This document shows, one piece after another, positions 3,400-48,886 of a stretch of 64,000 nucleotides of DNA. Position numbers and translations under genes: made by a program. This stretch comes from Thermodesulfovibrio sp. Lineage in GTDB: Bacteria; Nitrospirota; Thermodesulfovibrionia; Thermodesulfovibrionales; Thermodesulfovibrionaceae. The DNA lies in contig DYFF01000003.1 of assembly GCA_020725335.1 (NCBI GenBank), forward strand, positions 101,526 to 165,525, read 5' to 3'. The notes beneath the pieces are model-generated. The model was not told the origin of the DNA. It made no database searches and saw only the letters and a program-made list of their open reading frames with translations. Position 1 is the first letter of the stretch. Each line of letters begins with the position of its first letter.

Positions 3400-5129
3400 C
3401 TTGATGCCATAACCTTGCTATTAGTTTCATTATTATTTATGGTAACAACAAGTCCCTTCTCCTTTGCATCATCTCTTGGAACATTAAGATATGCTAATGC
3501 TTCATCAGAAATAGCCTTAAAAACTGGCCCAGCTACAACTCCTCCGTAATGAGCTCCCTTAGGGTCATGAATTACAACTATTAGCGCAATACGAGGATTT
3601 TCAGCGGGTATAAATCCTACAAAAGAGCTAACAAATTTATCTTTTGAATATTTCCTTATTTTAGGGTCATACTTCTGTGCTGTTCCAGTTTTTCCTGCTA
3701 CATTGTTTCCTTCAACCTTAGCTGTTGTTGCTGTGCCACCTTCCTGAGTTACCCTTTTAAGAATTTCTCTCATAGTATAAGCAGTCTTCTCAGATAAAAT
3801 CCTATCTCTTTGAATAACAGCTTTATATAAAATATTTCCATCTGGAGAACGTATTTCGGAGACAATAAATGGTTTTACAAGATATCCGCCATTTGCAATA
3901 GCAGAATATGCTCGTAACATTTGAAGAGCAGTAACAGCTACTTCTTGACCTATAGGTATAGCTCCTATTGAAGTACCAGACCATTTACTGACAGGTTTAA
4001 TATGCCCTGATATCTCTCCTGGAAGATCAATTCCGGTTTTTTCACCTATACCAAATTTCTTAATATAATCATACAACTTTTCCCTACCAAGCATCATTGC
4101 AATTTTTATTGTACCTACATTAGAGGACTTTTGAATAATCTCTTCGAAAGTAAGCACCCCATATTTATGTACATCCTTGATTTTTTTACCTCCCACTTCA
4201 ATAAAACCCGGAGCACAATCTATCTTTGTAGTTGGTTTTATTATTTTTTCCTCTAAAGCAGCAGATGCGGCTACTATTTTAAATGTGGAACCAGGCTCGT
4301 ATAAGTCCGTTATTGATCTGTTTCTTATAACAGATAAATTCTTGATTGTTTTTAAATCATTTGGATTGTAATTTGGTCTATTTGCTAAAGCAAGAATTTC
4401 ACCTGTAAAAGGTTCCATCATAATTATAGTGGCAGAAGAAGCGTGCCATTTATTCATAGCTTCGTCCAGATGTTTCTCAACAATATATTGCAATCCCTCA
4501 TCAAGCGTCAAAAAAACATCATTACCTCTGATTTCCCCATAGTTACCATCAGATAATTTCTTGCCTGTAGCATCTCTTAGAACTATTTTCGAAGTTTTTT
4601 CAGCCTTAAGATACTTATTATAATATTTTTCTAATCCCTCAATACCTTCCTCATCAGTATTTACAAAACCTACCACATGAGAAGCTATTGAACCTTTTGG
4701 ATAATATCGTATATGTTCAGTAATAAAACCTACTCCTTGAAGCTTTAATTCCTTTATTTTCTTTGCTGTTTCATCATCGAGCTTTCTTTTTATCCATATA
4801 AATCTTTTATTATTTTCAGCATCATTTATGATTTCGCTATAATCAACATTTTTTATATAATTTTTTAATACATTTATTGTTTCGTTGCCTTTAATTAAAA
4901 CAGGATCAATAAAAAGAGAATCTCTCTCTAAGGAAACAGCTAAATCTCTGCCGGTTCTATCATAAATATTACCCCTTTTGGGCAAAATTTCCTCTTTTTT
5001 CACATGCTGCATATTAGCTTTTTGTAGATAGACTTCGTGCTCGACAAACATTATAAGAAAAAGTCTAAACACTATAACTAAAAAACAAAGGGTTATAAAA
5101 TATTTTAGGATATTAATCCTTGAGAGCAT
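3396..5129 (-). CDS. ftsI: penicillin-binding protein, FtsI/PBP3 class B transpeptidase
   Basis: ORF 577 aa; N-terminal TM, EPGSTFK, SSN, KTGTAQ motifs. Confidence 0.94.
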   Translation of the reverse strand: MLSRINILKYFITLCFLVIVFRLFLIMFVEHEVYLQKANMQHVKKEEILPKRGNIYDRTGRDLAVSLERDSLFIDPVLIKGNETINVLKNYIKNVDYSEIINDAENNKRFIWIKRKLDDETAKKIKELKLQGVGFITEHIRYYPKGSIASHVVGFVNTDEEGIEGLEKYYNKYLKAEKTSKIVLRDATGKKLSDGNYGEIRGNDVFLTLDEGLQYIVEKHLDEAMNKWHASSATIIMMEPFTGEILALANRPNYNPNDLKTIKNLSVIRNRSITDLYEPGSTFKIVAASAALEEKIIKPTTKIDCAPGFIEVGGKKIKDVHKYGVLTFEEIIQKSSNVGTIKIAMMLGREKLYDYIKKFGIGEKTGIDLPGEISGHIKPVSKWSGTSIGAIPIGQEVAVTALQMLRAYSAIANGGYLVKPFIVSEIRSPDGNILYKAVIQRDRILSEKTAYTMREILKRVTQEGGTATTAKVEGNNVAGKTGTAQKYDPKIRKYSKDKFVSSFVGFIPAENPRIALIVVIHDPKGAHYGGVVAGPVFKAISDEALAYLNVPRDDAKEKGLVVTINNNETNSKVMASR

Positions 5130-33951: not shown

Positions 33952-35484
33952 GTGAATAAAGGTAAGGTTTATCTTGTAGGGGCAGGCCCTGGAGATGCAG
34001 GCTTAATTACTCTAAAGGGTATTAGAGCCATTCAATTGTCTGACTGTATTGTATATGATTTCCACATAAATCCTCGTCTTTTAACCTATGCAAAGGAAGG
34101 TGCCGAATTTGTCTATGCAGGTAAGAGGGGTGGACATCATGAAATGACTCAGGATGAAATAAATGCAGTTTTAGTGCAAAAAGCAAAGGAAGGCAAAAGA
34201 GTATGCAGACTCAAAGGTGGTGACCCCTTTGTTTTTGGTAGAGGTGGAGAGGAAGTAGAGATTCTCCACGAAGAAGGTATAGAGTTTGAGATAATTCCCG
34301 GAATAAGCTCTGTAATTGCTGTTCCTGCTTATGCAGGCATTCCTGTTACCCATAGGAAAGTTTCTTCTGCTTTTACAGTAATCACAGGGAATGAAGACCT
34401 TTCAAAACAAGACAGAATTTTCACCCATATCAGAGCTTCCAATGCAGCTGAAACAATGATTTTTCTGATGTGTGTGCGAAACCTTGAAACAATCACAGTC
34501 AAACTAATTCAGGAAGGACTCAAACCAGAGACTCCCTCTGCTATAATCCGATGGGGGACAAGACCTGAACAAAAGGTATTAACAGCAACAATTTCTGAGA
34601 TTGCCCAGCTTGCAAAGGAGCATAAAATTTCTCCTCCGGCCATTCTTGTAATCGGTGATGTGGTCTCTCTTAGAGAGAAGTTAAACTGGTATGAAAAAAA
34701 GCCACTTCATGGGCATAGAATTCTAATTACAAGACAGTTAACTGAGGAATACCTATCCCTTGAAGACATGGGAGCTGAACTTTTCGTATTTCCTACAATA
34801 GCCTTTTTAGCACCAGAAGATTATACAGAATTAGATAGAGCAATAGAGAAAATTGAAGAATATCAATTTATTGTCTTTCCCTCACCAAGAGGGGTTAAAT
34901 TCTTTTTTGAACGATTTATGACACTTGGCAAAGATATGAGAAACTTAAGAGGGATTTTAATATGTGCAATTGGTCGGGAGACTGCAAAAAGTTTAAGGGA
35001 TTACGGTATAAATGCTGATATAGTTCCTGAGGAATTTAATTCAGAGGCTATGGCAAAAACTATAAGGGAAGAGATTCTTCGCTTCGCTTCGGCTCAAAAT
35101 GAGGGGAAAAGAATTCTTTATCCCCGTTCAGATATTGCATTAAAAGGTTTTGTTGAAGAAATGGAAAAATATGGAATCAAAGTAGATGCACCTATCACAT
35201 ACAGAACAGTAAAACCTACAGAGCATGGGAAAAGACTTGCAAGATTTCTAAGAGAGGGCAAAATAACAATCGCTACCTTTACTTCTCCTTCAAGCTTTAA
35301 TAACTTGATAGATATTCTTAAAGATGATGCCAGAGATATGCTCAAAGAAGTTGTTATTGCTGCAATAGGCAAAACTACTGCAAAGGCAATTGAAGATGCA
35401 GGCTATAAAGTAAACATAATTCCTGAAAAATCAACAATAAAAGACATGGTGGAGGCAATCATAAAATGGGCACAACAGAAATAG
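33952..35484 (+). CDS. cobA-hemD: uroporphyrinogen-III C-methyltransferase / uroporphyrinogen-III synthase fusion
   Basis: KVYLVGAGPGDAGLITLKG, GGDPFVFGRGGEE, C-terminal HemD domain. Confidence 0.94.
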   Translation: MNKGKVYLVGAGPGDAGLITLKGIRAIQLSDCIVYDFHINPRLLTYAKEGAEFVYAGKRGGHHEMTQDEINAVLVQKAKEGKRVCRLKGGDPFVFGRGGEEVEILHEEGIEFEIIPGISSVIAVPAYAGIPVTHRKVSSAFTVITGNEDLSKQDRIFTHIRASNAAETMIFLMCVRNLETITVKLIQEGLKPETPSAIIRWGTRPEQKVLTATISEIAQLAKEHKISPPAILVIGDVVSLREKLNWYEKKPLHGHRILITRQLTEEYLSLEDMGAELFVFPTIAFLAPEDYTELDRAIEKIEEYQFIVFPSPRGVKFFFERFMTLGKDMRNLRGILICAIGRETAKSLRDYGINADIVPEEFNSEAMAKTIREEILRFASAQNEGKRILYPRSDIALKGFVEEMEKYGIKVDAPITYRTVKPTEHGKRLARFLREGKITIATFTSPSSFNNLIDILKDDARDMLKEVVIAAIGKTTAKAIEDAGYKVNIIPEKSTIKDMVEAIIKWAQQK

Positions 35485-36812
35485 TTGTAGTAGGTGGTGG
35501 CATTTCAGGGCTTTCCTTTGCCTATTTTTTACTTAAGAAAAATCCCCAGCTTAACATAAAAATAATTGAAGCAGAAAAGAGAGCAGGTGGGAAAATAATT
35601 ACAGAAAAAGCTTCAGGTTTTCTTTGTGAAGGTGGTGTTAATGGCTTTTTGAGTAATAAACCTTCTACTTTAAATCTTGCAAGCCAGTTAAGTTTAGAAC
35701 CTCTTAAAGGAAGCGAAGATTCAAAAATCAGATACATTCTAATTGATGGAAAACTTACAAGAGTTCCTGATAATCCGCTCAAGTTTTTTCTATCGCCTCT
35801 TCTTTCCTTTTCTGGGAAAATAAGAATGCTCAGAGAATACTTTACTCCGCCAGTAAAAGAGGATTTAGACGAAACTGTGGAAAGCTTTGTATCCCGAAGA
35901 GTTGGAAGAGAATTTTACGAAAAACTCATTGATGCCATGTCAACGGGAATTTACGCAGGAGACCCAACAAAAATGAGCATGAAAAGCTGTTTTCCTAAAG
36001 TTTACTGGCTTGAAAAAAAATACGGCGGACTTATAAAGGGATTAATTGCCCTTAAAAAAGAAAAAAAGGATGCTAAAGCTCAGCCCTCAGCTGTTTTAAT
36101 GTCCTTTAGCGGAGGAATGGGTGAACTCATTGGAAGCCTTGAGAACTATCTCTCCTCAAAAATTTTAAGTGAGAAGAAAGTTTTAAGTATAGAAAAAAAA
36201 GGAAATCACTTCACAGTTAATCTAAATGATGGAAGCAGTATTGAGGCAGAGAAAGTTATACTTGCCTGTCCTGCCCATGAATCAGCAGAGATATTGAAAG
36301 AATTAGATAAAGAAATCTCAGGTATTTTAAAAACCATACCCTATCCACCCTTAAGTGTTGTTGCTTTTGGATTTAGAAAGGGGCAAATAGGCTTTGGAAC
36401 TTCTCTCTATGGCTTTTTAATTCCTAATAGGGAGAAGAGAAAAATTCTTGGAACTCTTTTTGACTCAAGCATCTTCCCTAACAGAGCACCTGAAGGCTAT
36501 GTTCTACTTAGAAGCATGATTGGAGGAAGAAGAGCACCAGAACTTGCAATGCTGCCTGATGAAAAGCTTATTGATACAGCTTTGTCAGAGTTAAAGCCAC
36601 TTTTGAATATTAAAGGAGAACCTGAGTTTATAAAAATATTCCGATGGGAAAAAGCAATTCCTCAGTATGAATTAGGGCATGAAGAAAAACTAAATCGCAT
36701 ACAGCAGGCACTTTCCAAATTTCCCGGCCTTTACTTAACAGGTAATGCTTATAAAGGTGTTAGTGTTAATGACTGTATAGAAAATTCTTTAAAATTAGCT
36801 GAACAAATTTAA
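35466..36812 (+). CDS. hemY: protoporphyrinogen oxidase (HemY/HemG type)
   Basis: IVVVGGGISGLSFAYFL, YAGDPTKMSMKSCFPK, NAYKGVSVNDCI. Confidence 0.93.
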   Translation: MGTTEIVVVGGGISGLSFAYFLLKKNPQLNIKIIEAEKRAGGKIITEKASGFLCEGGVNGFLSNKPSTLNLASQLSLEPLKGSEDSKIRYILIDGKLTRVPDNPLKFFLSPLLSFSGKIRMLREYFTPPVKEDLDETVESFVSRRVGREFYEKLIDAMSTGIYAGDPTKMSMKSCFPKVYWLEKKYGGLIKGLIALKKEKKDAKAQPSAVLMSFSGGMGELIGSLENYLSSKILSEKKVLSIEKKGNHFTVNLNDGSSIEAEKVILACPAHESAEILKELDKEISGILKTIPYPPLSVVAFGFRKGQIGFGTSLYGFLIPNREKRKILGTLFDSSIFPNRAPEGYVLLRSMIGGRRAPELAMLPDEKLIDTALSELKPLLNIKGEPEFIKIFRWEKAIPQYELGHEEKLNRIQQALSKFPGLYLTGNAYKGVSVNDCIENSLKLAEQI

Positions 36813-37002: not shown

Positions 37003-37533
37003 ATGGAAAAAGAACTTCTCAATGAGCAGGAAATAGAAAGAATCCTAACCAGGATTACCTACGAGATATTGGAAAAAAACAAGGGAGCTGAAAATATTTG
37101 CCTAATAGGGATTGTAACAGGCGGCGTATATCTTGCTGAAAGAATTAAGAGAAAAATAAAGGAAACAGAAGGTATGGATGTGCCAACAGGTGTTCTTGAT
37201 ATATCTTTTTACAGAGACGATATTAATCTATCAAAAAAACGGAAGGCTATTAAACCTACTAATATTCCCTTTAACATTGATGAAAAAAGGGTTATATTAA
37301 TTGACGATGTCCTCTACACAGGAAGGTCTACCCGTGCTGCAATGGATGCACTCATGGATTTTGGTAGACCATCAGAAATTCAACTTGCTGTATTGATAGA
37401 TAGAGGGCATAGGGAACTACCAATTATGCCAAACTACACAGGTAAGTATATCCCTACTTCAAGGAATGAAAAGATAAAAGTTTACCTGAGGGAAATTTCA
37501 GGGAAAGATTCAGTTGTACTAATTACACAATGA
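37003..37533 (+). CDS. pyrR: bifunctional pyr operon regulator / uracil phosphoribosyltransferase
   Basis: GIVTGGVYLAERI, VILIDDVLYTGRSTRAAMDAL; TATAAT at 36967-36972. Confidence 0.94.
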   Translation: MEKELLNEQEIERILTRITYEILEKNKGAENICLIGIVTGGVYLAERIKRKIKETEGMDVPTGVLDISFYRDDINLSKKRKAIKPTNIPFNIDEKRVILIDDVLYTGRSTRAAMDALMDFGRPSEIQLAVLIDRGHRELPIMPNYTGKYIPTSRNEKIKVYLREISGKDSVVLITQ

Positions 37534-38438
37534 AAGACCTTGTAGGAATAAAAGAGCTTTCAAGGCATGAAATTGAGGAAATCCTCAATACAGCTAAAGC
37601 TTTTAAAGAAGTCCTTCAAAGAGATATTAAAAAAGTTCCAACCCTAAGAGGTAAAACAGCTATTAATCTTTTCTTTGAACCTTCTACAAGAACACGCACA
37701 TCTTTTGAGCTTGCTGAGAAGCGTCTTAGTCTTGATGTGCTTAATTTTTCTGTTAGCACAAGCAGTGTTGTAAAGGGTGAAACTCTTTATGACACCTTAA
37801 AAACAATTGAGGCATATAATGTGGATTATATCGTCATGAGGCATTCTTCTTCAGGTTCTGCAAGATTTGTAGCAGAACATACACCAGCTTCTGTGATAAA
37901 CGCAGGTGATGGCACAAATGAGCATCCTACACAGGCATTGCTTGATGCCTTCAGTATTATTGAAGTAAAAGGAAGACTTGATGGACTTAAAATAGCTATA
38001 GTCGGAGATATTAATCATAGTAGAGTTGCTCGCTCAAATCTTTATCTGCTGAGTAAGTTTGATACTCAAATAAATTTCGTAGGACCTCCCACTCTACTCC
38101 CCTTAGAAGCACCTGATAACGTAAAAATTTTTTATGATCTAAAAGAAGGTATAAAAAATGCTGATGTGGTAATGCTTCTAAGAGTTCAGCTTGAAAGACA
38201 AAAGGGAGCATACATTCCTTCGCTAAAAGAGTACTCCCATGTATGGGGAGTAAAGAAAGAGGCATTTTCTTATCTTAAAAATGATACAATCATAATGCAT
38301 CCTGGTCCTATGAATAGAGGTGTAGAGATTTCAACAGAGATTGCAGACAGTTCACGTTCCATTATTTTAAAACAGGTAACAAATGGAATTGCTACGAGAA
38401 TGGCTGTGATTTATTTGTTAACACCTAAGGAGGCTTAG
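37530..38438 (+). CDS. pyrB: aspartate carbamoyltransferase catalytic subunit
   Basis: FFEPSTRTRTSFELAEKRL, HPTQALLDAF. Confidence 0.96.
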   Translation: MKDLVGIKELSRHEIEEILNTAKAFKEVLQRDIKKVPTLRGKTAINLFFEPSTRTRTSFELAEKRLSLDVLNFSVSTSSVVKGETLYDTLKTIEAYNVDYIVMRHSSSGSARFVAEHTPASVINAGDGTNEHPTQALLDAFSIIEVKGRLDGLKIAIVGDINHSRVARSNLYLLSKFDTQINFVGPPTLLPLEAPDNVKIFYDLKEGIKNADVVMLLRVQLERQKGAYIPSLKEYSHVWGVKKEAFSYLKNDTIIMHPGPMNRGVEISTEIADSSRSIILKQVTNGIATRMAVIYLLTPKEA

Positions 38439-39749
38439 TTGATTATTAAAATTTATAACGCTTCCATAGTTGATCCCTTTACGAATAAAGAGGGAATTGT
38501 TGATATAGTTGTTGATGAAGGTATAATTTCGAATGTTAAGTTTAAGAGGAAAATTAAATCTATTACCTTAAACCTTAGAACCTCACCCTCTATTTTAGAG
38601 ATAGACGCCCAAGGACTTTATGTCTTCCCAGGGTTAATAGACATTCATACCCATTTAAGAGAACCAGGATATGAATATAAAGAGACCATTCGCACTGGAA
38701 CTCTTGCTGCTGTAAAGGGTGGATTTACCTCTATATGTTGTATGGCAAACACTAATCCTGTGAATGATAATCCAGAAGTTACATATTATATACTTGCTAA
38801 AGCTAAGGAAGAAGGTAGTTGTGACGTGTATCCAATTGGAGCTATAACAAAAGGACTTAAAGGAGATGAAATCTCTGATATGGCTATGTTAAAAGAAGCA
38901 GGTTGTATTGCTTTTTCTGATGATGGCATGCCTGTAATGAACTCTCTTATTATGAGAAGAGCCCTTGAATATTCAAAAGCAGTAGGCGCCCCAATAATTT
39001 CACATTGCGAAGACTTGAATTTAAGTGAAGATGGGGTAATGAACGAGGGAAAACTTTCCTTTTATCTTGGGCTTAAAGGAATTCCTAAAGCATCAGAAGA
39101 GGTAATGATAGCAAGAGATATAATTTTAAGTAAAAATCTTAAAACACCTATTCATATTGCCCATGTCTCAACAAGCGGTTCTATTGAATTAATAAAAAAA
39201 GCTAAGGAAGATGGTGTATTTGTCACAGCCGAAACCTGTCCTCATTATTTTACTCTTACAGAGGATGCTGTGCAAAATTACAACACTAACGCTAAAGTAA
39301 ATCCTCCTTTACGTTCAGAAAAAGACCGTGAAGCAATAAAAGAAGCATTAAAATATGGAATAATTGATGTTATCGCTACAGACCATGCCCCACATCACAT
39401 AGACGAGAAAAAAGTACCTTTTCAGGAAGCATTAAATGGTATTTCAAGTCTTGAAACAGCCTTTGCCCTTAGTCTTAACCTTGTACATGAAGGTATTTTA
39501 AGCATTAGAGAACTTATTGAAAAGCTAACTATCAATCCTTCAAAAATTTTAAAAATACATAAAAAGGGAATAGTTGAAGGAAGTCAGGCTGATATAATTC
39601 TCGTTGACATAAATAAAAAATGGACAGTAAATAAGGATAATTTTTCGTCACTTGGCAAAAATACGCCCTTTGATGGTTGGGAGTTAAAGGGAAAAGTCTT
39701 GCTTACAGTTAAAGGAAAGAAAATTTTTGATATGAGAGGAGAAAATTAA
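38439..39749 (+). CDS. pyrC: dihydroorotase
   Basis: GLIDIHTHLREPGYEYKE, ATDHAPHH; TTG start. Confidence 0.95.
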   Translation: MIIKIYNASIVDPFTNKEGIVDIVVDEGIISNVKFKRKIKSITLNLRTSPSILEIDAQGLYVFPGLIDIHTHLREPGYEYKETIRTGTLAAVKGGFTSICCMANTNPVNDNPEVTYYILAKAKEEGSCDVYPIGAITKGLKGDEISDMAMLKEAGCIAFSDDGMPVMNSLIMRRALEYSKAVGAPIISHCEDLNLSEDGVMNEGKLSFYLGLKGIPKASEEVMIARDIILSKNLKTPIHIAHVSTSGSIELIKKAKEDGVFVTAETCPHYFTLTEDAVQNYNTNAKVNPPLRSEKDREAIKEALKYGIIDVIATDHAPHHIDEKKVPFQEALNGISSLETAFALSLNLVHEGILSIRELIEKLTINPSKILKIHKKGIVEGSQADIILVDINKKWTVNKDNFSSLGKNTPFDGWELKGKVLLTVKGKKIFDMRGEN

Positions 39750-40840
39750 TGAAAAAAGCAATTTTAGTCCTTAAAGATGGGACTATTTTTGAAGGTTTCT
39801 CCTTTGGAGCAGAAGGAGAATCAATAGGAGAGGTAGTTTTTAATACTTCTATGACAGGTTATCAGGAAATACTTACAGACCCTTCTTATAAAGGACAGAT
39901 TGTGGTAATGACCTATACACAGATTGGAAATTACGGCGTAAATGAAGAAGATGTTGAATCTATTGGGGGTCCTAAGGTAGAGGGCTTTGTAGTAAGAGAA
40001 TATAAGGATTATCCGAGCAACTGGCGAGCAGAGGAAAGCCTTGGGAAATATCTAAAAAAGCATAATATTGTTGGTATTCAAGGAATTGATACTCGTGCCC
40101 TAACAAAACATTTAAGAGACAAAGGTGCTCAGATGGGGATTATCTCAACAGAAGACCTTGATCCTGTAAGTCTTCAACAGAAAGTTGTAACACATCCTGA
40201 TATTTCAGAAATTGACCATGTAAGTAACATGATGTGTAAAGAACCTTATTGGTTTTATAAAGATAACAACCTCCCTCTCTGCATAGTTTATGACTATGGA
40301 GTTAAGCTTAACATACTGAGAAATTTAAAAAGAGTTGGGTTTTCAGTTTATGTTGCACCTGGCAAAACCCCTGCTGAAGTTCTGCTTGATATGAACCCTA
40401 ACTGTATAATGTTAAGTAACGGTCCTGGTGACCCTCAAATTCTTACTTATGCAGTGGAAAATATAAAAAAATTAATTGGCAAAAAACCTCTTTTTGGTAT
40501 ATGTCTTGGTCATCAACTAATCGGCCTTGCTTTAGGAGGTAGAACATATAAGTTAAAATTTGGCCATCATGGAGGAAATCATCCTGTGAAGGATTTAAAA
40601 ACAGAAAGGATCGCAATTACAGCACAGAATCACAATTACTGTGTTGATATCAACAGTTTAAATGGTCAGGTAAGATTAACCCATAAAAACCTATATGACG
40701 GAACAGAAGAAGGGATGGAACATGTGGAATACCCCATTTTCTCAGTTCAACACCATCCTGAGGCAGGACCTGGTCCAAATGATGCTCTTGATGTTTTCGA
40801 AAGATTTAGAGAAATTGTGAAAGATTATGAAAAAATATAA
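39749..40840 (+). CDS. carA: carbamoyl-phosphate synthase small subunit
   Basis: GFSFGAEGESIGEVVFNTSMTGYQEILTDPSY, FGICLGHQLIGLALGG. Confidence 0.96.
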   Translation: MKKAILVLKDGTIFEGFSFGAEGESIGEVVFNTSMTGYQEILTDPSYKGQIVVMTYTQIGNYGVNEEDVESIGGPKVEGFVVREYKDYPSNWRAEESLGKYLKKHNIVGIQGIDTRALTKHLRDKGAQMGIISTEDLDPVSLQQKVVTHPDISEIDHVSNMMCKEPYWFYKDNNLPLCIVYDYGVKLNILRNLKRVGFSVYVAPGKTPAEVLLDMNPNCIMLSNGPGDPQILTYAVENIKKLIGKKPLFGICLGHQLIGLALGGRTYKLKFGHHGGNHPVKDLKTERIAITAQNHNYCVDINSLNGQVRLTHKNLYDGTEEGMEHVEYPIFSVQHHPEAGPGPNDALDVFERFREIVKDYEKI

Positions 40841-40926
40841 CCTAATTTTAAAAAATTTTAAAAAGGAGATTAATCGGTTAAATAAAGGGTAAAGACTAAA
40901 AGGATTGGAGGAATTTTTAAAAGAAT

Positions 40927-43900
40927 ATGCCAAAGAGAACAGATATTAAAAAAATATTAATAATAGGTTCAGGGCCAATAATAATTGGGCAAGCATGTGA
41001 GTTTGACTATTCTGGTGCTCAAGCATGTAAAGCTTTAAAACAAGAAGGCTATAAAGTAGTGCTGGTAAATTCAAATCCTGCCACTATCATGACAGACCCT
41101 TCAATGGCAGATGCTACCTATATTGAACCTTTGACTGCTGAAATTCTTGAACTGATAATAAAAAAGGAAAAACCTGACGCTCTTTTGCCTACGCTCGGAG
41201 GGCAGACCGCTCTTAATCTTGCTGTGGAACTTGGCAATTCTGGTGTGCTTGATAAATACTCTGTTGAGCTCATTGGAGCAAATCTGCAGGCTATTAAAAA
41301 AGCAGAGGATAGACAACTTTTCAAAGATGCAATGGCAAAGATAGGACTTGATCTGCCTCGTTCAGCAGCTGTTAACAGCCTTAAAGAAGGACTTGAAGTA
41401 ATTGACTGGATAGGCTTTCCCGCAATCCTTAGACCTGCATTTACTCTCGGCGGGACAGGTGGAGGAATAGCATATAACATTGAAGAATATAAAGAACTTC
41501 TTGACAGAGGATTAAAACTAAGCCCTGCAAGTCAAGTTCTTGTTGAGGAGAGTCTACTTGGATGGAAAGAATTTGAGCTTGAGGTTATGAGGGATAGTGC
41601 AGACAATGTTGTCATCATCTGTTCAATTGAAAACTTTGATCCTATGGGAGTGCATACAGGAGATTCCATCACAGTTGCGCCTGTTCAGACACTTACAGAC
41701 AGAGAATATCAGATAATGCGTGACAGTGCTATAAGAGCAATTAGAGAGATAGGTGTTGATACTGGAGGGAGTAACATTCAATTTGCTGTAAATCCTAAAA
41801 ATGGCAGAATGGTCATAATAGAGATGAATCCAAGAGTATCTCGCAGTTCCGCTCTGGCAAGTAAAGCAACAGGTTTTCCTATAGCAAAAATTGCTGCAAA
41901 ATTAGCTGTTGGGTATACACTTGAGGAAATTCCCAATGATATAACAAAGGTTACTCCAGCAAGCTTTGAACCAACTCTTGATTATGTGGTTGTAAAGATA
42001 CCAAGATTTACATTTGAGAAATTTCCTGAAGCTAATCCTATTCTTACTACACAGATGAAATCTGTTGGAGAAGTAATGGCTATCGGAAGGACATTTAAGG
42101 AAGCAATTGGCAAAGCCATCCGTTCTTTAGAGATAGGGTCTTACGGATTAGAAGAGACAAAGGTATCCTCTGAGGAAATAAGATGGAGGATTAAGAATCC
42201 CAATGCAGAGCGACTGTGGTACATAGGAGAGGCAATACGTAGAGGTTTTAGCATAGAGGAGATATATGAATTAAGCGGAATTGACCCTTGGTTTTTACAT
42301 AATATAAAGGAGATAATAGATGTTGAAGAAAACATCAGGTTTTCAAGAAATATAAAGATGAAAGAAGATGAGCTAAAAGAACTCCTATTAAATGCGAAAC
42401 AGTGTGGACTTTCAGACAGAAGAATTGCCTATTTAATGGGTAAAAAAGAATGGTCCATAAGAAATTTAAGAAAGTCCCATGGAATTATTCCTGTATATAA
42501 GCTGGTTGATACTTGTGCTGCCGAGTTTATTGCCCATACTCCTTATATGTATTCAAGTTATGAGAAAGAATATTATTCTTTAAACTCTTCTGCCTGTTAT
42601 GACTCTGATGCTCCTCCCACGTCAAACAAAAATAAAGTGATTATTCTTGGTTCAGGTCCAAACAGGATAGGACAGGGGATTGAATTTGACTACTGCTGTG
42701 TTCATTCAGTCTTTGGCTTAAGAGAGCTTGGCTATGAAACTATCATGATAAACTGTAACCCAGAAACAGTAAGTACAGATTATGATACATCTGATAGACT
42801 TTATTTTGAACCTTTAACCCTTGAAGATGTTATACACATAGTTGAAAGGGAAAAACCTCTTGGTGTAATACTTCAGTTTGGGGGACAAACACCTCTAAAA
42901 CTTGCAAAAGCTTTGGAGGCTCATGGAGTAAATATTCTTGGCACAAAGGCAGATGCTATTGATAGGGCAGAAGACAGAAAACGTTTTAAAGAACTTGTTG
43001 ATAAGTTAGCTTTAAAACAGCCACCAAGTGGAACAGCTACATCTCTTGAAGAAGCATTAAAAATAGCAGATTCACTTGGGTATCCTATCCTTGTGAGACC
43101 TTCCTATGTGCTTGGTGGAAGAGCTATGGAAATTGTTTATGATGAAGAATCTTTGAGAAGGTATATGAGAGAGGCAGTTAAAGCCTCCGAAGACCATCCT
43201 GTGCTAATTGATAGATATTTGGAAGATGCTATTGAGGTTGATGTAGATGCTATTTCTGACGGGGTTGACGTGGTTGTAGCGGGCATAATGCAACACATTG
43301 AGGAAGCAGGCATTCACTCGGGTGATTCTGCTTGTTCTCTTCCTCCCTACTCACTTTCAGAGGAAATAATTGAAAAGATTAAGGAAGAAACCATAGCAAT
43401 TGCAAAAGAGCTTGAAGTAAAAGGGCTCATGAATGTTCAGTATGCTATCAAAGATTCTGATGTTTATGTTCTTGAGGTAAATCCTCGAGCTTCAAGAACT
43501 ATCCCCTATGTCAGTAAAAGCATAGGGGTGCCTTTAGCAGCAATAGCATCAAAGATAATGGTAGGAAAAACATTAAAAGAACTTGGTCTCCTCAGTGATA
43601 TAAAAATTCCATATGTAACAGTAAAGGAGGCAATCTTCCCCTTTGATAAATTCCCAGAAGTAGATATAATTCTTGGACCCGAGATGAAATCCACAGGAGA
43701 AGTAATGGGGATTGATGAAGACTTCGAACTTGCCTATGCAAAAGCACAAATGAGTGCAATGGGGAAAATTCCTTTAAGTGGTAAAGTATTTATAAGCGTC
43801 AAGGATAGGGATAAGGTTCATGTTGTTCACATTGCAAAAGAATTTATAGAGCTTGGATTTACGGTTATAGCTACAGGGGGAACTGCAAAGTTTTTGATGG

Positions 43901-44184
43901 ATAATGGTTTAAAGGTGGAAACAATCAATAAACTTCAAGAAGGAAGACCTCATGTGCTTGATTTAATTAAAAACAAACAGATTAGTTTCATAATAAACAC
44001 AGTTTTTGGAAAGCAGGCGCAGAGAGACTCTATGTACATTAGAAGAGGAGCTCTGCAATATAAAATTCCCTATACTACAACAATTTCAGGAGCAAATGCC
44101 ATTGTTAAGGCTATTCGAAGACTTAAAGAACATCCTATAAGTATTAAATCTATTCAGGAATATCATAGGGAGGTGCAGGGTTGA
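40927..44184 (+). CDS. carB: carbamoyl-phosphate synthase large subunit
   Basis: Duplicated ATP-grasp, [41 protein letters not shown]. Confidence 0.97.
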
Positions 44185-45719
44185 TAAAAAGAGCATTAAT
44201 AAGTGTATGGGACAAAAGAGGTATAGTTGATTTCTCAAGGGAATTGAGTAAGCTTGGAGTTGAAATACTTTCAACAGGAGGAACGGCAAAACTTTTAAGA
44301 GAATCAGGAATTAATGTAATAGATGTATCTAAATATACAGGATTTCCTGAAATAATGGATGGCAGGGTAAAAACTCTTCATCCATTCATCCATGGAGGAA
44401 TTCTTGCAAGAAGACATAACAAAGAGGATATTGATGCAATGGATAGATTGGGCATCAACCCTATTGACATGGTTGTAGTTAATCTATATCCCTTTGAATC
44501 AACAATAAAAAAAGAAGGTACAACTCTTGAGCAAGCTATTGAAAATATTGATATTGGTGGACCTACAATGCTTAGAGCTTCTGCAAAAAATTACAAAGAT
44601 GTGATAGTAATTGTTGACCCTGATGATTATTCTTCTATAATTGAGGATATTAAAAAAGGAGAAGTCTCTATTGAGAGAAGATTTGAACTTGCCAAAAAGG
44701 TTTTTTCTCATACTGCAAGATATGATGCCCTCATAGCTGATTATTTCAGCAAACTCTCTGAATCCCCGTCAGCCTTCACAGAGGAATGGACATTGCCATT
44801 AAAAATGGTACGTACCTTGAGATATGGAGAGAATCCTCATCAAAAAGCTTCTCTTTATTCTTTGAATGAAAAACCTTCTCTTATAGATGCAGAAGTTTTA
44901 CAAGGAAAAGAAATGTCTTTTAATAACTATCTTGATACTCATTCAGCAGTGCTTTTAGCTGCTGAGTTTAATGAACCTGTATGCGTTATTGTAAAACATA
45001 ATAATCCCTGCGGAGTTGCTACTGGTAACAACCTCCTTGATGCCTATAAAAAAGCCTTCGAATGCGATCCAGTAAGTGCTTTTGGTGGAATAATCGCTTT
45101 TAATAGAATAGTTGATAGGAAAACTGCAGAAGATGTCATTTTGACATTCTATGAGGTTATTATTGCTCCAGACTTTGAAGCTGAGGCAATTGAGGTTTTT
45201 GGGACGAAGAAAAATCTTAGAGTTATTAAATTCCCCGCATTGAAAGAAAAAATTATTCCCTCTGGCTTTGACTTAAAAAGAATACTCGGTGGATTTATAG
45301 TTCAAGAGTGGGATAAATTGGAAGATGAATTTGCCCATTCTAAAGTTGTTACCAAAAGACAACCTACAGAAGATGAATGGAAAGCACTCAAATTTGCGTG
45401 GAAGGTTTGCAAACATGTAAAATCTAATGCCATTGTATATGCAACAGAGGACTGTACAGTAGGGCTTGGTATAGGACAAACAAGTAGAGTTTTTTCAGCT
45501 AAAATCGGAGCTATGCATGCTTTAAGCCCTCTTAAAGGAACCGTCGTTGCCTCTGACGGATTCTTTCCTTTTAGAGACAACATTGATGTGCTTGCACAAA
45601 ACGGCGTTACTGCAATAATTCAACCCGGAGGATCTGTTCGTGATCAGGAAGTGATTGATGCAGCAGATCAGTATGGCATAGCAATGGTTTTAACAGGGAT
45701 AAGACATTTTAGGCACTAA
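44181..45719 (+). CDS. purH: bifunctional AICAR formyltransferase / IMP cyclohydrolase
   Basis: [33 protein letters not shown] start overlapping carB. Confidence 0.96.
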
Positions 45720-45720
45720 T

Positions 45721-46617
45721 ATGAGACCTTTCAAGGAAATAAAGGCAAATTATTATTTCACAAAGGAGGACGAAAGAAGGCTTCTTGAACTAAAGATAGT
45801 AATGGAAAAAAGAGTTGATAGAGCTGTTGAAGCTCTTTATCAATGGATTAATTCTACAGACTCAGCTAAAAAAATTTTTAGAAATGAATCTCTTATAAGA
45901 CATGTAATGAAACTTGTCCGTTTCTGGTTTATAAGTCTTTTCTCTGGTAAATATGACAATTATTTCTATGACAGTCTCATAAAAATAGGACAGAGACATG
46001 AAAAAGTTGGCGTAGAACCTCATTTTATGACAAGAGCTATTAATATAATCAGAAATACCACTGTAGATATTATATGTGAGGAGATTGAACTTCCCGAAGA
46101 AAGAGAAAAATATATAATCTCCGTAAATAAGATACTTGACATTAATCTTGATATAATTATATCGGCTTATCTTGAAGAGGAAGTTAGAGGATATTCAGCA
46201 GCCTACAGGGTAAAAAGTAGAGTAGTTAAGTTTGGGGAAATTTTTGCTCAATTGACAAGCATTGCTCTTATTTTAGGATTAATATTACTAACAGGAGCAG
46301 TAGTATATCTATGCGGTAGAGATATATATGAAATATTTACTGGTAGACTTGAACAAACTATTATAACTGCCCTTGGTTCGGTTCTAATTTTGTGGGTTAT
46401 GCTTGAACTAATAAATACAGAAATAGCCCATTTGCGAGGCGGAAAATTTAAGATAAGTGTTTTCGTTGGAGTAGCGCTCGTAACCACAATAAGAGAAGTC
46501 ATGATCGCAACTTTGAAACATGACACTATTGAATTTATTGTTGCGCTTGTAGCATCGGTACTTGTGATAGGAATTATATACTGGTTGGTTAAAAAGACAG
46601 AGGAGGAAAGAAGATGA
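45721..46617 (+). CDS. protoglobin-type globin sensor domain fused to PsiE-like membrane domain
   Basis: IKIGQRHEKVGVEPHFMTRAINII (sensor-globin F-helix region); C-terminal 4-TM region aligning by eye to E. coli PsiE. Confidence 0.75.
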   Translation: MRPFKEIKANYYFTKEDERRLLELKIVMEKRVDRAVEALYQWINSTDSAKKIFRNESLIRHVMKLVRFWFISLFSGKYDNYFYDSLIKIGQRHEKVGVEPHFMTRAINIIRNTTVDIICEEIELPEEREKYIISVNKILDINLDIIISAYLEEEVRGYSAAYRVKSRVVKFGEIFAQLTSIALILGLILLTGAVVYLCGRDIYEIFTGRLEQTIITALGSVLILWVMLELINTEIAHLRGGKFKISVFVGVALVTTIREVMIATLKHDTIEFIVALVASVLVIGIIYWLVKKTEEERR

Positions 46618-47879
46618 AAGTACTTGTAATAGGCTCAGGAGGCAGAGAACATGCAATAGTGTGGAAACTTGCCCAATCCAGAGTTGTTGATAAAATCTAT
46701 TGTGTTCCAGGAAATGCAGGAATCTCTGATATAGCTGAATGCGTAGAGGTAGAGAGTAAAAATCTATCAAGCCTGTTAGATTTTGTAAAATACGAATGGA
46801 TTGATCTTACAGTAGTGGGACCTGAAGATCCTCTCGCTCACGGAATTGTGGATATTTTTGAAAAAGATGGGCGAAAGATTATCGGACCAACAAAAGCAGC
46901 TGCTCAACTTGAAAGTAGCAAAGTATTTGCTAAAGATTTCATGAAAAGACACAAAATACCTACTGCAGATTACAAAGTTTTTACCTCTTACACCCATGCA
47001 GAAGAGTATATAAGGCTAAAAGGAACGCCAATAGTTATAAAGGCTGAGGGTCTTGCAGCTGGTAAAGGTGTTTTTGTTTGTCAAAACTACGATGAGGCAA
47101 TAGATGCTCTAAAATTAATCATGAAAGAAAAGATTTTTGGCTCCGCAGGTGATAGAGTCGTAATAGAGGAATGTCTTCAGGGAAAAGAGGTGTCTTATCT
47201 TGTCTTTACTGATGGTAAACATATAATACCAATGGTTACATCAAAAGATCACAAAAGACTTCTTGATAAAGATGAAGGTCCTAATACAGGTGGTATGGGA
47301 ACCTTTAGCCCCAATCCAATTATAACTCCTGAACTTGAAAAGGATATTATTGAAAATATAATAAAACCAACGATTAGGGGCTTAAAACTGGAAGGAATTA
47401 TTTACAAAGGTATTCTTTATGCGGGACTTATGATAATAAATAATAAACCCTACGTACTTGAATTTAATTGCCGATTTGGAGACCCTGAAACTCAAGTAAT
47501 TTTACCACGACTTGAAACAGATTTAGTAGATATATTTATGGCTATTGCAGAACAGAGACTGAATAAAGTAGAAATTAAATGGAAAGCAGATGCCTCTCTA
47601 TGTGTAATTTTAGCTTCAGAGGGTTATCCTGGAAAGTACAAGAAAGGTATACCTATTTCAGGACTTGATATGGTTAAAGGATTAGAAGATGTAATGGTTT
47701 TTCATGCAGGCACTAAATTTAATGAAGAAGGTCAGATAGTAACTAATGGTGGAAGAGTTTTGGGTATAACTGCCTTAGGTAAAGATATAAAAGAAGCAAG
47801 ACAAAAAGCTTATAATGCAGTAGAATTGATTAATTTTCAAGGTATGCAATATAGAAAAGACATTGGTTTAAATATCTGA
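46614..47879 (+). CDS. purD: phosphoribosylamine--glycine ligase
   Basis: [41 protein letters not shown]. Confidence 0.97.
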
Positions 47880-48128: not shown

Positions 48129-48886
48129 ATGAATCCACAAATCATATCAATCAATCTTAATAAAAATATTAATAAATTTTTTGCTCTTAATACGCTTGTT
48201 GTTATAGCTGCGATTGTTTTATTATTTCTTCTTACCGATTATGAAAAAAAGATTTGCTCATTGCTATATCCTTAATTTCTGCTGGAATAATTGCTACTAA
48301 CCTTTATATAACAAAGTCTATTCGAAAAAGAGTTGATAAATTAATAAGGCATTCCTTTGAAAAGGTCGAGTCTCAACTTTATTTTGATGAATTAACTTCT
48401 GTTTATAATAGAAAAACAGGAATGAACAGGTTAAATGAAGAAATGATTCGTTCAAAAAGAACAGGAAAACCTTTGTCAATAGGAATTCTCGATATTGATG
48501 ATTTTAAACAAATAAATGATAAATATGGTCATCTTGTGGGAGATAGAGTCTTGAACCATGTTGCCATACAGATTAAAAATTCTTTAAGAGGATGCGATGT
48601 TGTCGCGAGATACGGTGGCGAAGAATTTTTAATAATATTATCAGAAACAGACGAAATACACGCTATATCAGCCCTTGAAAGAGTAAGAAGTCAGATAGCT
48701 AAAAAGGCAATAAAAGTTGGAAATGAAAGGCTTCATGTTACTGTAAGTATAGGGGTAACGGAAATAGGATTTGATGAAGACCCTGTTGAATCAATTCATA
48801 AAGCTGATTTGGCTTTGTATCAAGCAAAGAGAAATGGTAAAAATAAGGTAGAACTTTTCTTGAAATATACTAAAAATAGAAATTAG
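48129..48886 (+). CDS. two-TM diguanylate cyclase (GGDEF), reading frame split by apparent -1 shift at A_AAA_AAG (48245-48251)
   Basis: 0-frame ORF 48129-48275 gives a TM segment then stop; -1 frame continues [12 protein letters not shown]...[10 protein letters not shown]; RxxD I-site RGCD. Confidence 0.8.

Follow-up and report, generated by a model that had tools for sequence, protein, structure and literature searches.

The locus

The window (the whole stretch of 64,000 nucleotides that was analysed, from a contig of Thermodesulfovibrio, a group of heat-loving bacteria that reduce sulfate) contains a run of pyrimidine and purine genes in the order pyrR-pyrB-pyrC-carA-carB-purH-GCS-purD, at the end of which, immediately before purD, lies a gene encoding a globin-coupled sensor (GCS) fused to a PsiE-type membrane domain. 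The features concerned are the following.

37003..44184, + strand: pyrR, pyrB, pyrC, carA and carB, running into purH (pyrR, pyrB and pyrC from Pfam; carA and carB from ORF sequence)
44181..45719, + strand: purH, directly upstream of GCS-PsiE (PF01808, PF02142)
45721..46617, + strand: GCS-PsiE gene, 298 aa (ORF; full length kept in relatives at 40-90% identity)
45733..46182, + strand: Protoglobin/sensor-globin domain, residues 5-154 (PF11563 2e-28; 2w31 6.6e-29; Foldseek 2w31 TMt 0.93)
46183..46245, + strand: linker, residues 155-175 (AF2 helices 125-158 and 160-207, of low confidence here)
46246..46602, + strand: PsiE domain, residues 176-294, four predicted TM helices (PF06146 1.1e-22)
46614..47879, + strand: purD, directly downstream of GCS-PsiE (PF01071, PF02844, PF02843)

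Just upstream of the pyr run (33952-36812) there is a cobA-hemD fusion together with a gene of the amine-oxidase type that may encode a protoporphyrinogen oxidase, and downstream of purD (48254-48886) there is a GGDEF protein, as there is at this position in some close relatives.

Domain assignment

The initial annotation, made from the sequence by eye, had proposed a protoglobin or sensor-globin domain at the N-terminus and a PsiE-type membrane domain with four TM helices at the C-terminus, and both halves are borne out by significant profile matches. Pfam Protoglobin scores 99.8 bits against a cut-off of 25 over residues 5-154, while Pfam PsiE scores 81 bits against a gathering cut-off of 23.9 over residues 176-294, covering profile positions 3-121 of 122, so that the fusion at 45721-46617 is real. 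The NCBIfam equivalog for the E. coli-type protein (NF002763) gives only 18.9 bits, far under its cut-off of 138, and the C-terminal half is therefore a member of the PsiE family rather than an orthologue of E. coli PsiE itself.

Strong purifying selection acts on each of the two domains, with dN/dS of approximately 0.05-0.08 for the globin and 0.03-0.09 for PsiE (calculated only where dS could be estimated). This bears on the idea that the globin is a relic without a signalling role, or a heme store, with PsiE performing some independent housekeeping role. The 1.8 Mb host genome does contain, beside its single Protoglobin, one further PsiE, which is free-standing, and to that extent the idea has something in its favour; given the low dN/dS, and the conservation both of the two domains and of the proximal histidine described below, it is nonetheless highly improbable.

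The globin fold and predicted heme site

Of the solved chains, the globin domain of the Geobacter sulfurreducens GCS (GsGCS; 2w31, 6.6e-29) comes closest to that of the window protein, followed by AfGcHK (2.4e-11). In an AlphaFold model of the window protein, built from 11 relatives, the globin part is good (pLDDT mostly above 80) and the PsiE part weak (about 60); Foldseek aligns this model to 2w31 with a TMt of 0.93. In an alignment of 66 homologues His93 and His101 are invariant, and His93 aligns with His93 of GsGCS and with His99 of AfGcHK, the latter being the proximal ligand of that protein (PMC8697598). The histidine of the motif IGQRHEKVG, previously put forward as a candidate proximal ligand, is this same residue 93, and it is through His93 that the window globin is expected, judging from sequence, to bind heme b.

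On the distal side the window protein has Tyr40 at the B10 equivalent and Val66 at the E11 equivalent. Tyr40 aligns with Tyr45 of AfGcHK, the O2-recognising residue of that protein (PMC8697598), and the window protein has, in this sense, the distal tyrosine of O2-sensing globins with TyrB10. Within the genus position 40 is mostly Tyr, four members having Phe or His instead, and E11 is Val or Ile. Elsewhere the pocket is different: E11 is mostly Gln in families f25, f10, f13, f5, f8, f9 and part of f12, where position 40 is Ser, Asn or His, and it is His in f6, f7 and f14, so that the 66 homologues show pockets of the types Tyr/Val, Ser/Asn/His-Gln, X-His and X-Arg. The proximal side is thus fixed, while the distal side has been adjusted differently from one lineage to the next; the ligand may accordingly differ between lineages, and it is unlikely that one ligand serves every member of the family. 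For the Tyr40/Val66 pocket of Thermodesulfovibrio, the ligand could be either O2 or NO.

PsiE as a probable exchangeable output

E. coli PsiE is annotated as phosphate-starvation-inducible, and a PsiE relative occurs in a transmissible heat-resistance island (PMC8290217, PMC7010813). Even in E. coli the family is without an assigned function. The recurrence of the globin fusion across the phylum, in a sister lineage next to nitrite and nitric oxide genes, offers a rare handle on what these proteins do. In the Nitrospirota family f32 PsiE lies behind a BLUF domain in proteins of 294 aa (PsiE 2e-36 and 1e-36; BLUF 3e-33 and 2e-34), the gene adjoining one for DNA photolyase in both of the f32 loci examined (L097 and L098). 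In a further genome (G330; L112:2516-3400 and 3452-4486) two BLUF-PsiE-like genes, recognised by sequence likeness, stand in tandem and have almost the same sequence through most of their length.

Two residues, Glu229 in TM2 and Arg258 in TM3, are kept in E. coli PsiE, free-standing PsiE, BLUF-PsiE and globin-PsiE alike. When E. coli PsiE is compared with the fusions, no His is among the positions that never vary, and PsiE shows no conserved His pair. Since structure searches found no solved relative of PsiE, and since this part of the model is of low confidence, no claim is made here as to its fold. Given that PsiE is fused also to BLUF, it behaves like a membrane output that is driven by a sensor and can be swapped between sensors; its attachment to two unrelated sensors suggests that PsiE is something a cell switches. 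The two inputs are also ready handles, through gas and light respectively, for switching PsiE in an assay. As regards earlier reports, a search of the open literature found no paper that names both PsiE and globin-coupled sensors and, going by titles, none on a BLUF-PsiE fusion; the architecture may already be listed in domain databases.

Distribution and the purine setting

The architecture is no one-off: in a census of 396 sampled Nitrospirota genomes the full-length globin-PsiE fusion recurs across the phylum, being present in 64. A plasmid search gave no full-length match. Around the distant fusions of family f28 (L088, L090-L093) there are genes for a universal-stress-like protein, for a 95-aa protein that belongs to no known family and for a P-type ATPase.

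The placement of the gene between purH and purD in a pyr/pur operon, with spacing of 1-4 bp, was read correctly in the initial annotation, there being a 1-bp gap to purH and a 4-bp ATGA overlap with purD. The order purH-GCS-purD is found in all 16 of the same-genus genomes examined, and also in families f12, f8 and f7 and in part of f5 and f10 (f6 has purD alone, and in one f12 genome, L082, the fusion is upstream of purH instead), but the linkage is lineage-specific, and in many close relatives the fusion is located elsewhere. In a quick tree, with several open forks, the deepest split within the order has pur-linked fusion genes in either branch, and the linkage consequently looks old, with later moves away.

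It could be argued from this that the gene serves purine synthesis, as a regulator of, or membrane anchor for, PurH and PurD that is tied to oxygen or redox state. The constancy of the arrangement in the genus and in many relatives, its presence on either side of the deepest split and the very tight spacing would all be in keeping with such a role. A stable biosynthetic operon can, on the other hand, carry an unrelated gene with it, and many close relatives have the fusion elsewhere; we regard a purine role as decidedly unlikely.

A separate observation concerns purH itself. In eight loci (L105, L073, L083, L084, L085, L106, L107 and L108) the purH-like gene upstream of the fusion matches only the first 190-230 or so residues of the window PurH, the IMP cyclohydrolase part being present and the transformylase part missing there, so that purH appears, on sequence, to be split in these genomes.

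Nitrogen-oxide genes beside the fusion in a sister family

In the sister family f25 the surroundings are of another kind. Alongside the fusion, 13/13 loci contain one gene for a CBS-domain protein and one of the HPP family, and norB and/or nrfHA lie by it in six of the 13 (norB at L064, L066, L067 and L068; nrfHA at L063, L064 and L078). L064 has norB, globin-PsiE, CBS, HPP and nrfAH all in one locus, and in one f10 locus (L070) nrfHA is divergent from the fusion. The neighbours were identified through PF02335 (NrfA), TIGR03153 above its cut-off (NrfH), PF04982 (HPP) and, for NorB, a match to the solved cNOR 3o0r at 1e-109. An estimate of such adjacency by chance gave 0.17 hits expected, a figure made post hoc on related loci and so indicative only. 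One HPP protein, from Arabidopsis, has been reported to be a candidate transporter of nitrite (PMC4137279).

This adjacency of norB, nrfHA, CBS and HPP genes makes NO or nitrite the leading candidate for the signal in f25, the most likely signal there being NO or something derived from nitrite. In the genus of the window none of the CBS, HPP, norB and nrfHA genes stands beside the fusion gene, its neighbours there being purH and purD. HPP was considered as a required partner of the window fusion and rejected, as Thermodesulfovibrio has no HPP genes. The window's own genome has an NrfA elsewhere, away from the fusion gene; genome-wide co-occurrence of NrfA with the fusion was set aside as evidence, being confounded by kinship.

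The same neighbours, as redox enzymes of NO and nitrite, might be taken to mean that the protein is not a ligand sensor at all: it could be a heme redox or electron-transfer device, its globin heme exchanging electrons (for example with the quinone pool via PsiE) in the manner of a membrane-tethered globin that detoxifies NO or O2. The E11 His of f6, f7 and f14 would suit this, since in GsGCS that position provides the sixth ligand of a bis-His heme (PMC4476040). PsiE, however, lacks a conserved His pair that could hold a second heme, and its pairing with the light sensor BLUF fits signalling better, which leaves this alternative looking rather unlikely.

Proposed mechanism

The best reading, and in our judgement probably the correct one, is that the protein is a membrane-anchored GCS, in which a heme gas or redox sensor switches a PsiE membrane effector. 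The N-terminal globin would be cytoplasmic, with heme b bound through His93, and the G/H helix bundle of a globin dimer would move when the iron meets a diatomic gas (O2 or NO) or changes its redox state. This shift might then pass along a continuous helix, running from the globin H helix through the linker, into TM1, and so bring the four helices of PsiE, which lie in the inner membrane, into another state. On this scheme PsiE would exert its effect either within the membrane or on some partner located there, and not as an enzyme of nucleotide messengers. For other globin-coupled sensors it has been proposed that a signalling helix connects the H helix of the globin with the output (PMC10882959), and the model of the window protein is consistent with one, though too weak to serve as proof.

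A broader version of this proposal, possible but on balance doubtful, is that PsiE is a general sensor-switched effector for varied inputs (globin, BLUF), the globin form in Nitrospirota sensing NO and, at the inner membrane, tuning how nitrite and NO are dealt with.

Comparison with known systems

The sensor half of the protein is not new, given that GsGCS, a close globin relative, has already been characterised. GsGCS is the best match to the globin in both sequence and fold, and shares with it the N-terminal start, the length and the position of the proximal His93; it differs in having His66 at E11, the sixth ligand of its bis-His heme (PMC4476040), where the window protein has Val66. A search of the open-access literature on the C-terminal domain of GsGCS found nothing. 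That part of GsGCS is presumably membranous too, and may be PsiE. AfGcHK (5ohe) agrees with the window protein at the heme, its proximal His99 and distal Tyr45 aligning with His93 and Tyr40, but its output is a histidine kinase rather than a membrane domain. HemAT, DosC/YddV and BpeGReg likewise have the sensor-globin fold in common with it (Foldseek), and differ in their outputs, which are MCP or GGDEF domains in place of PsiE.

For the other half, E. coli PsiE (b4030) has the family PF06146 and the Glu and Arg in common with the window domain, but is free-standing and only 17% identical to it in the alignment. BLUF-PsiE (L097, L098 and the tandem pair in L112) has the same C-terminal PsiE after an N-terminal cytoplasmic sensor, that sensor being a flavin blue-light domain, beside photolyase in L097 and L098, instead of a globin. 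In the window protein are found the sensor-globin fold, the F8 His and the C-terminal output domain that characterise the GCS family, together with, as far as the model can indicate, a helix linking the two; the globin-coupled sensors would thereby gain an integral-membrane output to stand beside the known MCP, GGDEF and kinase outputs.
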